From Ascochyta rabiei (taxonomy: Eukaryota > Ascomycota > Dothideomycetes > Pleosporales > Didymellaceae): 64,000 nt of DNA. The notes under the pieces are model-generated. The model worked only from the letters and a program-made list of their open reading frames with translations, had not been told where the DNA came from and ran no database searches. Of the stretch, positions 6,342 through 47,974 are shown piece by piece. Position numbers and translations under genes: made by a program. The number at the start of each line of letters is the position of its first letter. The first letter of the stretch is position 1. The stretch lies in the NCBI RefSeq assembly GCF_004011695.2, contig NC_082405.1, positions 1,054,001 to 1,118,000 on the forward strand. Reading direction: 5' to 3'.

Positions 6342-6347
6342 AAAAAA
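6342..6347 (-). terminator. Pol III T6 terminator of tRNA-Cys
   Basis: Six consecutive T on the minus strand begin 7 nt after the discriminator base of tRNA-Cys. This is the usual Pol III stop signal and supports the 3' end and strand. Confidence 0.75.
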
Positions 6348-6354
6348 TCAAGTC

Positions 6355-6493
6355 AGGGCCGAACCGGAGTCGAACCGGTGACTTCGGGATTTACTGCTTT
6401 GGAGGGCTGCAATCCTACACTCTACCACTGTTGGCTGTTAGACGGGGCTTTCAAATATGGTGTTTTGAGATAACTAACCTGAGTTACCGACCC
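6355..6493 (-). tRNA. tRNA-Cys(GCA) with two introns, one in the D-arm
   Basis: Exon segments are 6493..6479, 6427..6407 and 6390..6355. Removing the 51-nt segment 6478..6428 and the 16-nt segment 6406..6391 leaves a 72-nt cloverleaf. The acceptor stem GGGTCGG/TCGGCCC pairs 7 of 7 (two G-U). U8 A9 are present. The D-stem ACTC/GAGT pairs 4 of 4 with D-loop AGTGGTA. The anticodon arm has TAGGA/TCCCG (one A-C mismatch) and loop TT-GCA-G-A. The variable loop is 5 nt, the T-arm ACCGG-TTCGACT-CCGGT is perfect, and the discriminator is U, as expected for tRNA-Cys. The 16-nt intron sits after position 37, the canonical eukaryotic site. The D-arm intron is not canonical. Read without it, the sequence just upstream of the D-loop cannot pair with the 3' acceptor strand and a scanner would call it a pseudogene. 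Confidence 0.8.
6428..6478 (-). other. GT-AG intron inside the D-arm of tRNA-Cys
   Basis: The 51-nt segment begins GTTAGT, ends CAACAG, and has CTAAC at 6441..6437, with the presumptive branch A 10 nt from the 3' end. These are the signals of the mRNA introns in this window. Exon 1 ends in CAG and the intron ends in CAG, so the junction is ambiguous over 3 nt, between positions 12/13 and 15/16 of the tRNA. It shares no obvious sequence with the corresponding intron of tRNA-Gln. Confidence 0.75.
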
Positions 6494-25817: not shown

Positions 25818-27610
25818 ATGGTTATCTTCAAGTCGCGACAGCCCCCAATCGACCGTGAGCTTTCATAAATGAACTGAAGCTGTGGTATCTCTGCTGACTA
25901 AGTGTAGTACCTGCGCACCTGACAGATTGGGACTGGTTGTTCGACTCTTCCTACTCCCCTTTGAGTAAGTTCCCACCAAATGAGCTTGCTGGTTTCCAGA
26001 ATGCAATTACGAAAGAGCGCGTGAACTGGGCAGATGTCAAGAAGTATTCCACCTTCATCTCCACGGCTCTTGTCAAGAAATATGGCCTCAAGACCGGCGA
26101 GACAGTGTCCCTTTTTGGCCAAAACACTGTCTGGTACCCAGTTGCTATGTTCGCAGGCTTGCGTGTTGGAGCGAAAATCAGTGGTGCAAGTCCGGCATAC
26201 AATGTTGAAGAAATGACCTTTGCGCTCAAGACTGCGGATTCAAAGTTTCTCCTGACGACACCGGGCAGTATGGAAGTCGCATCCGCAAGTGCGAAGGCTG
26301 CTGGATTGCCACAATCGAACATATTCCTGTTGGAAGGCGAGCTCCCCGGCTACACCACCGTTCAAGAGCTTATTCGTATTGGACAGTCGTACGGGGAGGA
26401 CGGCCAGAGCCCTACATTCAAGATCCCACCAGGCAAAAAGAACAAGGATGTCTGCGGTTTCCTCTCGTTCTCAAGTGGCACGACCGGCCTTCCCAAAGCT
26501 GTGATGATCTCACATCAGAATGTAATCGCGCAGTGTCTCCAGATCCAGCAAATTACCCCGGAAACCCAGAAAAAGATCATGGCAGTACTCCCACTGTTCC
26601 ACATCACTGGTCTTGTCCATCAAATGCACCTACCCATACTTCTCAACGCCGAAGTGATCATGCTCCCTCAGTTCACCATGGAAGGAATGCTCAACACAAT
26701 CGTCGAATACAAACTCGGTGAACTGCTGCTGGTGCCTCCGATTCTCATCCGCCTCGTCCGCGATCCAATTGTCGACAAGTACGATCTCTCCCATATCACA
26801 CGCTTCTCATCCGGTGCCGCGCCCTTATCTGAGGAGGTCATTCAGCTCCTGCGGAAGAAGTTCCCTAGCACAGGCTTCAAGCAAGGCTACGGCATGACAG
26901 AATCATGCTCATGCATCACTGCACACCCGCCGGAGAAGTTCGACTACAAGTATGCGCACAGCGGCGGTGCCATCGTCGCGTCGACGGAAGTGAAGATCAT
27001 CAAGCCGGATGGCACAGAAGCCGGGTTCAACGAAGACGGAGAAGTGCTCGCCCGCGGTCCGCAGATTGTTATGGGATATCTTAACAACGCCAAAGCCACA
27101 GCAGAGACGTTTGACGCTGATGGGTTTCTGCACACCGGTGACCAGGGCAGCATCGACGAGGAGAACATGATTCACATCAGCGACCGCATCAAGGAGCTCA
27201 TCAAGGTCAAGGGCATTGGCGTTGCGCCTGCGGAGCTTGAGGATCTGCTGCTGGGCCATGCCAAGGTGGAGGATGTGGCAGTGATGAGTGTGCCAGATGA
27301 GTACAGCGGCGAGCTGCCGAAGGCGTATATCTCTCTCAAGCCGGGCATTGAAGAGAGCGCGGCGGTGGGGAAGGAGATCATCGCGTACGTCAAGGAGAAG
27401 AAGGTCCGGTACAAATGGTTGAACCAGGTCGAATTCGTAAGTCTGGCAGTCCGTGTAGAGACTTTGATACAACCGCTGAGCCAGTCCGACCAGATCAAGG
27501 AGATCCCCAAGTCGCCGTCCGGCAAGATCTTGAGGCGCGTATTGAGAGACAAAGAGAAGGCCAGCACGTTCGGCCTGGTGATCAAGGATGAAGCGAGACC
27601 GAAGCTATAA
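25818..27610 (+). CDS. 4-coumarate:CoA ligase-like acyl-CoA synthetase (ANL superfamily), likely peroxisomal
   Basis: Three exons (25818..25854, 25908..27436, 27494..27610) give 560 aa; the introns are 53 nt and 57 nt. The enzyme activates a carboxylic acid to an acyl-AMP and then acyl-CoA. The P-loop SSGTTGLPKAV is near residue 200 (Ala where Gly is usual), QGYGMTE near 335, and TGDQGSIDEE with SDRIKELIKVKG in the hinge region. PKSPSGKILRR has the catalytic Lys near the C-terminus. The second intron is a multiple of three and would be silent if retained, but splicing removes 19 residues that interrupt the C-terminal domain. The first exon has 37 nt and gives MVIFKSRQPPID. The protein ends PKL, a plausible PTS1 variant. 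The substrate (aryl or fatty acid) is not readable. Confidence 0.93.
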
Positions 27611-27893
27611 ATTCAGGTGGTTGACTTCGCGCTGGCGGCCGCAAGACCTTCCGTTTGCGTCTTCGCATTGCACTCTGTTTAGCGGTCCAGCGAGGTGGGG
27701 GGGCAAAACCCAAACCCTTCAACCCCACATCGTCACCTCACCATCACCACATCATCACCACACCACACGAAAACGAAAACTGCGTCCCCTACGTACCTCG
27801 CCACAGCAGTCCCTGATCCCTCAATTGCAGAAATTTCGACTCGCTATATAATACCACCTTGCAAGTTCAGCTTCCATCAAATAAACCAATCTT
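27611..27893. other. Intergenic between the ligase gene and tRNA-Gln
   Basis: A 283-bp stretch rich in CA and CAC repeats (about 27722-27768). No gene is seen. Confidence 0.6.
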
Positions 27894-28037
27894 GGTTTTG
27901 TAGTGTACGTTCATTCTTCCCTGATCAATTCAATCCCGGAGCAAGCCGCTAATTCCTCACTAGGTAGCGGTTATCACTCCGGATTCTGATCACCTCAGTA
28001 TCTTCCGGCAACCCCGGTTCGATTCCGGGCAAGACCT
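27894..28037 (+). tRNA. tRNA-Gln(CTG) with two introns, one in the D-arm
   Basis: Exon segments are 27894..27904, 27964..27989 and 28003..28037. After removing 27905..27963 (59 nt) and 27990..28002 (13 nt) a 72-nt cloverleaf remains. The acceptor stem GGTTTTG/CAAGACC pairs 7 of 7 (one G-U). U8 A9 are present, then D-stem GTGT/TCAC with D-loop AGCGGTTA. The anticodon stem CCGGA/TCCGG is perfect with loop TT-CTG-A-T. The T-arm CCCGG-TTCGATT-CCGGG is perfect and the discriminator is U, as in yeast tRNA-Gln. The 13-nt intron sits after position 37 and contains CAG complementary to the anticodon, as usual. The D-arm intron is non-canonical; the sequence immediately before GTAGCGG cannot form the acceptor stem. 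Confidence 0.85.
27905..27963 (+). other. GT-AG intron inside the D-arm of tRNA-Gln
   Basis: The 59-nt segment starts GTACGT, ends CACTAG, and has CTAAT at 27949-27953, 11 nt from the end. GTACGT is also the 5' splice site of several mRNA introns here, for example in SEC24 and the C2H2 gene. The intron starts GTA and exon 2 starts GTA, so the junction may lie anywhere between positions 11/12 and 14/15 of the tRNA. Confidence 0.8.
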
Positions 28038-28499
28038 CATTTTTTTTTGTGGTTCCAATGCATGTGTGTAAGCTGCATGTCAGTGATACTCTTACCTGCC
28101 CTTTGCACCTGTGATCTGACATGAGGGGTGCTTTTCTTTTTTTGTATTTCATGGAGTTGCGTGAAGGGTCACGAAATCGGTGGGTTGGGAGAGGTTGTGT
28201 AAGCGTGTTACGCATTCAGTGGTATACATATCAGGGACACGAGCCGTGTCAGGCTGGCGTCCTGCTTTTCTTTGCAAATGCCAAACATGCCCAGGGGAGA
28301 TCCTTTCCCATTCGCCAAACGCCTCGCAATATGATCCTCTGCTCTTCCTCGCGCCTGTCTGAACACGCGGGGGTGTGTGCTGGGAGTCGCGTGAGACGCG
28401 CTGCTCTTCCTCCTTCTCCCTTTTCCTCTTCCAGCTCCCTAGTAACTGCGGCTGTGCTGCTCGCTGTGGCTGACTGCCCTCAAGCCTCCAAAAGCGAGC
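28038..28499. other. Intergenic between tRNA-Gln and RPB5
   Basis: Contains the Pol III terminator and the RPB5 3' flank. A minus-strand ORF of 88 codons (27949..28215) is merely the tRNA-Gln sequence read as protein plus flank. Confidence 0.6.
28040..28048 (+). terminator. Pol III T9 terminator of tRNA-Gln
   Basis: A run of nine T starts 3 nt after the discriminator base. It indicates an actively Pol III-transcribed gene rather than a relic. Confidence 0.85.
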
Positions 28500-47891: not shown

Positions 47892-47974
47892 TGATTCGAC
47901 CCAGACTTGAACTGGAGACCTTCAGTGGACTAACATTGTTAGACTGACGTGATAACCAACTACACCATCGAACC
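47892..47974 (-). tRNA. tRNA-Val(AAC) with one canonical 9-nt intron
   Basis: 83 nt. Acceptor GGTTCGA/TCGAATC pairs 7 of 7 (one G-U). D-arm GTGT-AGTTGGTTA-TCAC, anticodon stem TCAGT/ACTGA with loop CT-AAC-A...C, variable loop AGGTC, T-arm TCCAG-TTCAAGT-CTGGG, discriminator A. Removing the 9-nt intron after position 37 (about 47936..47928, which contains GTT complementary to the anticodon) leaves 74 nt. It has no D-arm intron, so it serves as an internal contrast to tRNA-Cys and tRNA-Gln. Confidence 0.95.

Follow-up and report, generated by a model that had tools for sequence, protein, structure and literature searches.

Nuclear tRNA genes of Ascochyta rabiei are split by introns of apparent spliceosomal type in the D-arm, anticodon and variable arm

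Nuclear transfer RNA (tRNA) splicing is taught as a pathway of protein enzymes in which the spliceosome has no part, and spliceosomal splicing as an affair of RNA polymerase II (Pol II), with U6 and some ribosomal RNAs (rRNAs) as the exceptions. A stretch of 64,000 nucleotides (nt) from the genome of the fungus Ascochyta rabiei (contig NC_082405.1, positions 1,054,001 to 1,118,000; hereafter the window) contains a locus that raises a question about this division. At window positions 27894-28037 (+) lies a tRNA-Gln(CTG) gene whose D-arm is interrupted by an insert resembling an intron of a messenger RNA (mRNA). Is this a disrupted gene, an odd substrate for the tRNA splicing enzymes, or a working RNA polymerase III (Pol III) gene from which the spliceosome removes an intron? 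Comparison with the rest of the same genome makes the last of these answers highly probable: the genome appears to contain a set of functional tRNA genes, transcribed by Pol III, with U2-type introns that the spliceosome would remove.

Exon 1 of the gene (27894-27904, +; GGTTTTGTAGT) comprises tRNA positions 1-11 and is followed at site 11/12 by a 59-nt intron of spliceosomal type (27905-27963, +), which reads GTACGT...CTAAT...CACTAG. The branch-point-like CTAAT occupies 27949-27953 (+), with its branch-like A 11 nt ahead of the last intron base. Exon 2 (27964-27989, +) supplies the remaining D-arm, the anticodon stem, the anticodon CTG and position 37, and a canonical tRNA intron of 13 nt after position 37 (27990-28002, +) separates it from exon 3 (28003-28037, +), which holds the 3' strand of the anticodon stem, the T-arm with the B box, the 3' acceptor strand and the discriminator U73. 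The limits of exon 2 and of the canonical intron are those given by ARAGORN on the spliced sequence. Across the insert the acceptor stem forms 7 of 7 pairs, 6 of them Watson-Crick, and the mature product is 72 nt long. A run of nine T residues (T9), a Pol III-type terminator, follows at 28040-28048 (+), and a TATA-like box was read upstream at 27845-27852 (+). When introns were allowed, ARAGORN returned no tRNA from the unspliced locus, whereas removal of the 59 nt yielded tRNA-Gln(ctg) i(38,13); Rfam and ARAGORN reported nothing on the unspliced 64-kb window. The D-arm junction may slide by 0-3 nt with the product unchanged (GTA is present at both ends), and one of the four placements is GT-AG. 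A sequence-only reading of this DNA had described an 11-nt exon 1 split off by the 59-nt insert, full acceptor pairing, the 13-nt canonical intron, the 72-nt product and the T9, and on each of these points it agrees with the present analysis base for base.

Is the gene alone in its genome? The genome that holds the window comprises 40.9 Mb in 23 contigs, one of which (C23, 55 kb) reads as the carrier of the mitochondrial tRNA set. BLAST of the 144-nt Gln(CTG) gene against this genome matched six places, the window gene and five others. Three of the five (loci L002, L003 and L004) are also Gln(CTG) genes and share the D-arm intron. A fourth, L006, is a Gln(TTG) gene with the intron GTAAGT...CTAAC...CACAG at the same site, and its acceptor stem differs from that of Gln(CTG) by changes on both sides (GGTTGTA/TACGACC versus GGTTTTG/CAAGACC). 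The fifth, L005 (C16:351093-351176 and sequence upstream), is degenerate: it resembles a Gln gene, has GTAGGT...TAG in its D-arm and is mismatched in several of its stems.

A census of the whole genome, which drew on a tRNA covariance search, on B-box and terminator patterns and on the reading of fetched regions, yielded 104 nuclear tRNA genes. Eighty-four of these are contiguous apart from a canonical intron in some of them, and 20 are split by a total of 26 mRNA-type introns of 48-68 nt. The split genes, all from this one genome, are those for Gln(CTG) (4), Gln(TTG) (1), Cys(GCA) (2), Leu(TAG) (1), Leu(CAG) (1), Pro(AGG) (4), Pro(CGG) (2), Pro(TGG) (3) and Ala(CGC) (2). Six (L101, L103, L125, L188, L190 and L202) carry two mRNA-type introns together with one at the canonical place. 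ARAGORN named none of 19 split genes correctly from the raw sequence, missing 12 and misnaming 7; from the spliced forms it recognized a tRNA in all 19, with the assigned isotype in 17, the two Cys genes being called Ala(tgc). The census is incomplete. Of 1588 candidates, 63 were scored in the covariance search, which produced 62 matches, 42 of them above the cut-off and in nuclear sequence; it failed to detect 43 of the 84 contiguous genes, so that 41 of these come from that search and 43 from other routes (26 + 15 + 2). Counts from some of the B-box and terminator pattern searches refer to the matches listed. The pattern GGTTCAANYCC gave 66 matches, compared with 121 and 134 for its controls, and one further pattern list held 16; a minority of the loci in either set was read. 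Genes for tRNA-Phe, -His and -Arg(ACG), for example, were not found in this incomplete census. A further candidate, L059 (C5:855139-855197), was dropped, since it resembles a Lys-like copy that is truncated and loses its T-arm. Scans of genomic and viral contig collections for exon 1 plus donor gave 2, 5 and 4 matches, none with a tRNA downstream. The phenomenon is genome-wide, with at least 20 nuclear tRNA genes concerned, and is larger than the single gene first noted.

The positions of the introns, numbered by eye from ARAGORN and junction output, are varied. They lie at 10/11 (Leu), at 11/12 (Gln, Pro-AGG and Pro-TGG) and at 15/16 (Cys, Pro-CGG and Ala), and further sites are 19/20 and 24/25 (Pro-TGG), 26/27 (Pro-AGG), 27/28 (Ala) and the variable arm (Leu-TAG). 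In both Pro(CGG) genes, L125 (C12:316843-317143) and L139 (C5:644523-644823), an mRNA-type intron falls inside the anticodon, at 34/35, and is adjoined by a canonical intron, of 32 nt and 29 nt respectively. This makes 15 isotype-by-site combinations, none of which is the canonical 37/38. The sequences at the intron ends are, by comparison, uniform. All 26 start with GT, 23 with GTANGY (15 of these with GTAAGT), 24 end in YAG, and 25 contain CTRAY, the A of which lies 10-12 nt from the intron's end. GT, CTRAY at the right distance and YAG occur together in 23 of the 26 and in none of 20,000 mononucleotide shuffles, a comparison that is slightly favorable because the GT-AG placement was picked among a mean of 2.24 equivalent junctions (25 introns). 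GT-AG ends were found in 0 of the 51 distinct introns that ARAGORN called in other fetched nuclear tRNA loci, a set in which a few calls are spurious and one is a wrongly called fragment of the split L058. The sole mRNA comparison is a 53-nt intron inferred at window position 25855 in the adjoining CoA-ligase gene, with GTGAGC...CTGAC...TAG. Counted by motif alone, intron-like patterns numbered 18 in the window, not above a control with a mean of 12.0 and a maximum of 19.

If the split genes work, their exons should be constrained in a way that their introns are not, and comparison of paralogues bears on this. Spliced identities were computed with the canonical introns kept. The four Pro(AGG) genes are 100% identical when spliced, compared with 65-83% for their shared mRNA-type introns, and the corresponding values for the four Gln(CTG) genes are 98.8-100% and 73-96%, with exon 1 identical in all four copies. 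For Ala the spliced genes are 89.8% and the shared intron 71% identical; for Pro-CGG these values are 80.8% and 58%, and for Pro-TGG 84-97% and 58%. The pattern is that of exons selected as one molecule, with introns drifting between their signals. Some paralogues also record the presence and absence of an intron. When its 55-nt GT-AG intron is removed, the split Leu(CAG) gene L058 equals the intronless L039 at 81 of 81 nt, and the flanks of the two differ. The 15/16 intron is present in L101 and absent from L141 (Ala-CGC), and likewise present in L125 and absent from L139 (Pro-CGG), and the 26/27 intron of Pro(AGG) is present in L188 and L190 and absent from L187 and L189. Acceptor stems are paired 7/7 in all 19 genes tested (L058 left out), and these comprise 10 different stems. 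The identity of a tRNA for Ala, Gln, Cys or Pro depends on known elements, and these are retained: U73 in Gln and Cys, C73 in Pro, and in Ala the pair G3:U70, whose two bases come from exon 1 and the last exon respectively. Relaxed constraint on the exons, the mark of a pseudogene, was not seen in these comparisons; L005 is decayed.

A priori, intact genes elsewhere might do the work of the split ones. BLAST in the same genome found no nuclear gene for Gln, Pro or Cys in intact form. In the complete B-box lists for GGTTCGAWTCC (60 places) and GGTTCGASYCC (48 places) the Gln and Cys genes are all split, and none of the 10 matches to an intact Gln D-arm pattern (1 mismatch allowed; reversed-pattern controls gave 15 and 17) is a Gln gene. 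A tRNA-Gln(ttg) sits on C23, the contig read as mitochondrial. BLAST of eight spliced forms gave 25 matches, which lie in 18 of the 19 split genes known at that time and in L005, and nowhere else. The matches stop at exon ends or within the bases of the junction slide. The one exception is L004, whose match (98% identity) includes five intron bases, the end of the intron, TGTAG, being similar to exon 1. Where a match crosses a junction, the gene is one already known not to have that intron. Because it would give a longer match than a split gene, an unsplit one would be easier for BLAST to detect. For Pro the evidence consists of the spliced-form BLAST and a pattern list, among the matches listed, and the lack of unsplit genes in the covariance search says little, given the misses of that search. 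For Leu(CAG) an intact gene, L039, does exist. Several intact Gln(CTG) genes, which the sequence-only reading had named as a sign of a disrupted pseudogene, were not found in this genome: all four copies carry the intron. Together with the near identity of the spliced forms, this supports that reading's suggestion that the tRNA gene is functional, is transcribed by Pol III and has in its D-arm an intron of spliceosome-like type. Since Gln, Pro and Cys codons must be decoded, the split genes would therefore be expressed and spliced, barring a gene that was undetected or unassembled.

The signals for transcription are those of tRNA genes. Runs of 4-11 T residues lie within 25 nt downstream of 19 of 19 split genes. 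A TATA-like match at -56 to -16 precedes 15 of the 16 split genes whose 60-nt leader was covered, compared with 23 of 1000 random 60-mers from the window and with 50 of the 87 remaining ARAGORN calls, among which a few split genes are still counted. The core of the A box, T[AG][AG][CT]NNA at position 8, is present in 18 of 19 raw genes, the exception being Leu(TAG). It is kept because TRGY..A can still be read after an insertion at 11/12 or 15/16, and positions 12-14 are filled by the donor GTA when the site is 11/12. The TATA-like boxes in the leaders, which are commoner before split genes, may compensate for a disturbed A box.

Certain observations weigh against the conclusion that these are working genes processed by the spliceosome. 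Two Pro(TGG) introns, both at 24/25 and both with GTAAGT and CTAAC, lack the expected AG, that of L200 (C8:920645-920957) ending in CTG and intron 2 of L202 (C9:807090-807290) in CAT. A shift of the junction that would provide an AG was tried and rejected, as no shift preserves the D-stem. These introns either use rare non-AG 3' splice sites or belong to failing genes; among the three Pro(TGG) genes, L201 alone has just a clean GT-AG intron. Intron 2 of the Pro(CGG) gene L125 has ATAAC in place of CTRAY. L005 looks decayed and is the clearest pseudogene among the Gln copies, so that some decay does occur. Finally, the apparent absence of unsplit genes is based on searches that have gaps, the covariance search missing 43 of 84 contiguous genes and the spliced-form BLAST missing a known split gene, L125, so that its sensitivity is imperfect.

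These points bear most directly on the possibility that insertions broke the genes and that intact ones elsewhere do the work. In eukaryotes, insertions in the D- or T-arm of tRNA genes are generally taken as pseudogenes, according to the accessible part of a 2014 review (PMC4090602), and the decay of L005, the two odd 3' ends in Pro(TGG) and the intact Leu(CAG) gene are what would then be expected. Junk, however, would not preserve splice signals, nor would it leave the spliced forms identical in four Pro(AGG) genes and nearly so in four Gln(CTG) genes while the introns drift, or change acceptor stems on both sides; and the intact Gln, Pro and Cys genes that should replace the broken ones did not appear in the BLAST searches, nor those for Gln and Cys in the complete B-box lists. 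We therefore consider this explanation very unlikely. Much the same holds for removal by the tRNA splicing endonuclease (Sen), in the manner of the bulge-helix-bulge (BHB) introns of Crenarchaea and of the red alga Cyanidioschyzon. The passages seen in the same review record odd insertion sites, several introns per tRNA gene and D-arm introns in archaea, nucleomorphs and red algae (PMC4090602). In the present set, three of the four central BHB pairs can be formed at the best equivalent junction in 7 of 25 introns, but the 4-base-pair central helix, which in a BHB goes with 3-nt bulges where the RNA is cut, was found in 0 of 25 at any equivalent junction (L058 not scored). Random single placements give 2% for four pairs and 16% for at least three. 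The canonical introns of the same genes, at the best of three offsets, in contrast reach four pairs in 4 of 10 cases and at least three in 8 of 10. To our knowledge, moreover, Sen has no role that would account for GT, CTRAY and YAG. The proposal in the sequence-only reading that another enzyme might remove a non-canonical intron is thus disfavored, by splice signals at 15 isotype-by-site combinations and by the missing BHB, and removal by Sen seems to us very unlikely.

It might also be supposed that the tRNAs are cut from Pol II transcripts, the spliceosome acting on Pol II RNA and RNases P and Z releasing the tRNA. As a rule the spliceosome works on Pol II transcripts, and upstream TATA-like boxes are shared by both types of promoter; yet the T-runs downstream of all 19 genes and the TATA-like boxes before other tRNA genes fit ordinary Pol III tRNA genes, and we give this idea hardly any credence. 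Self-splicing group I or group II introns, or recently mobile introner elements, have a negligible likelihood. Introner-like elements have been reported in Dothideomycetes, as stated in the part of PMC4457414 that was accessible, but lengths of 48-68 nt are too short for group I or II ribozymes, Rfam has no match in the window, and an 896-nt query made from 17 of the 26 introns gave 15 matches in the genome, all 15 in the tRNA loci themselves. This query missed the homologous introns of L002-L004, L091 and L141 (~70-80% identity), so that it excludes near-identical copies and no others. An introner origin long ago would still mean removal by the spliceosome.

Returning to removal by the spliceosome from Pol III transcripts, a plausible order of events can be proposed. 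The TATA-like box, the surviving core of the A box and the intact B box would allow Pol III to transcribe the whole gene. The spliceosome would recognize the donor, CTRAY and YAG and join the exons of the D-arm, anticodon or variable arm. Sen and tRNA ligase would then take out the canonical intron after position 37, probably later because Sen recognizes the folded tRNA body, and RNase P, RNase Z and CCA addition would finish the tRNA. We infer the polymerase, the spliceosome as the enzyme, the part of Sen and the order of the steps from the lack of a BHB, the small size of the introns, the T-runs, the TATA-like boxes and the kept A box. If so, the spliceosome would be an obligatory enzyme of tRNA maturation, a conclusion that we regard as probable: all the Gln, Pro and Cys genes found become readable only after splicing of what would be a Pol III transcript, some at two sites and Pro(CGG) within the anticodon, and Sen would act on the same molecule.

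The window contains a second split gene, a tRNA-Cys at 6355-6493 on the minus strand. Its exon 1 (6479-6493, -), comprising positions 1-15, pairs 7/7 in the acceptor stem. The D-loop intron of spliceosomal type (6428-6478, -; 51 nt) reads GTTAGT...CTAAC...CAACAG, and the remainder of the tRNA-Cys(GCA), as given by ARAGORN on the spliced gene, occupies 6355-6427 (-) and includes an anticodon-loop intron and U73. A T6 run, again a Pol III-type terminator, lies at 6342-6347 (-). A paralogue on C2 (L091) is split in the same way, with an intron identity of 0.76 and a spliced identity of 0.955. Although ARAGORN labels the spliced gene Ala(tgc), we take it to be Cys on account of GCA, U73 and the lack of G3:U70. 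An ordinary tRNA-Val(AAC) gene with a short canonical intron is also present at 47892-47974 (-); five more copies were read elsewhere in the genome, and an mRNA-type intron was seen in none. The protein of the CoA-ligase gene that adjoins tRNA-Gln(CTG) is 93% identical to one from Ascochyta clinopodiicola and 87% identical to one from Didymella exigua.

How do these genes compare with known systems? The U6 gene of Schizosaccharomyces pombe, as described in the part of PMC8917221 available to us, is likewise transcribed by Pol III and interrupted by an intron of mRNA type. That intron sits in an RNA of the spliceosome itself, whereas here tRNA is concerned, in 20 genes and 15 isotype-by-site combinations; unlike fission yeast U6, a tRNA gene here may carry up to two mRNA-type introns in addition to a canonical one. 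The present genome has an uninterrupted copy of the U6 small nuclear RNA gene (L207, C14:905415-905530) and an interrupted one (L206, C9:1076000-1076190). In the latter a 66-nt insert, GTATGT...GTTAACACGTCGCAG, containing TTAAC and ending in GCAG, follows ACAGAGAA; its 3' end has diverged, no T-run occurs in the stretch read beyond, and it may be a dead gene. Short ectopic spliceosomal introns, one of 57 nt, also occur in the nuclear ribosomal DNA of ascomycetes, mainly lichen fungi, and thus in rRNA made by RNA polymerase I; they are removed by the host and, in one case, by yeast after transplantation into its rRNA (PMC8527467, in the passages available). The rRNA introns differ in being surrounded by long RNA, whereas the tRNA genes here would be transcribed by Pol III and have exons of as little as 10-11 nt. 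Non-canonical tRNA introns of archaea, nucleomorphs and red algae likewise occur in the D-arm, the anticodon stem-loop and other arms, several to a gene (PMC4090602, in part), but archaea and Cyanidioschyzon use the BHB motif and Sen, whereas here a BHB helix is lacking and GT, a branch site and AG are found. That review, so far as its accessible text goes, gives the mode of splicing of nucleomorph tRNA introns as not known and supposes non-canonical tRNA introns to be rare in eukaryotes (PMC4090602). Canonical eukaryotic introns after position 37 co-occur in the same genes and differ in position, in their ends (0 of 51 GT-AG) and in their structure-dependent removal. The known kind to which the new introns would belong is that of ectopic spliceosomal introns in non-coding RNA, and tRNA is a class for which no precedent was found. 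Searches of the open-access literature (most subscription papers and all bioRxiv preprints were outside the scope) turned up no earlier account of tRNA genes with introns of the spliceosomal kind, and the accessible portions of PMC11782384, PMC13149111 and PMC2586383 do not describe them. In the parts seen of genome papers on Ascochyta-blight fungi, a tRNA total of 125 and averages of 129-139 are given without comment (PMC4835772, PMC9410150).

tRNAscan-SE 2.0, according to the text available, relies in its archaeal mode on BHB models to detect non-canonical introns (PMC8450103), and split genes of the present type are therefore likely to be missed or mis-named. Further examples may be concealed in fungal genomes from which tRNAs for Pro or Gln seem to be missing. 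Paralogues with and without an intron in a single genome make gain and loss directly readable. If the proposed pathway is correct, exons of 10-11 nt, in an RNA that has neither cap nor poly(A), would be recognized by intron definition alone, and the pathway would offer a clean test of the spliceosome's need for Pol II. In this fungus translation would then be coupled to the capacity of the spliceosome.
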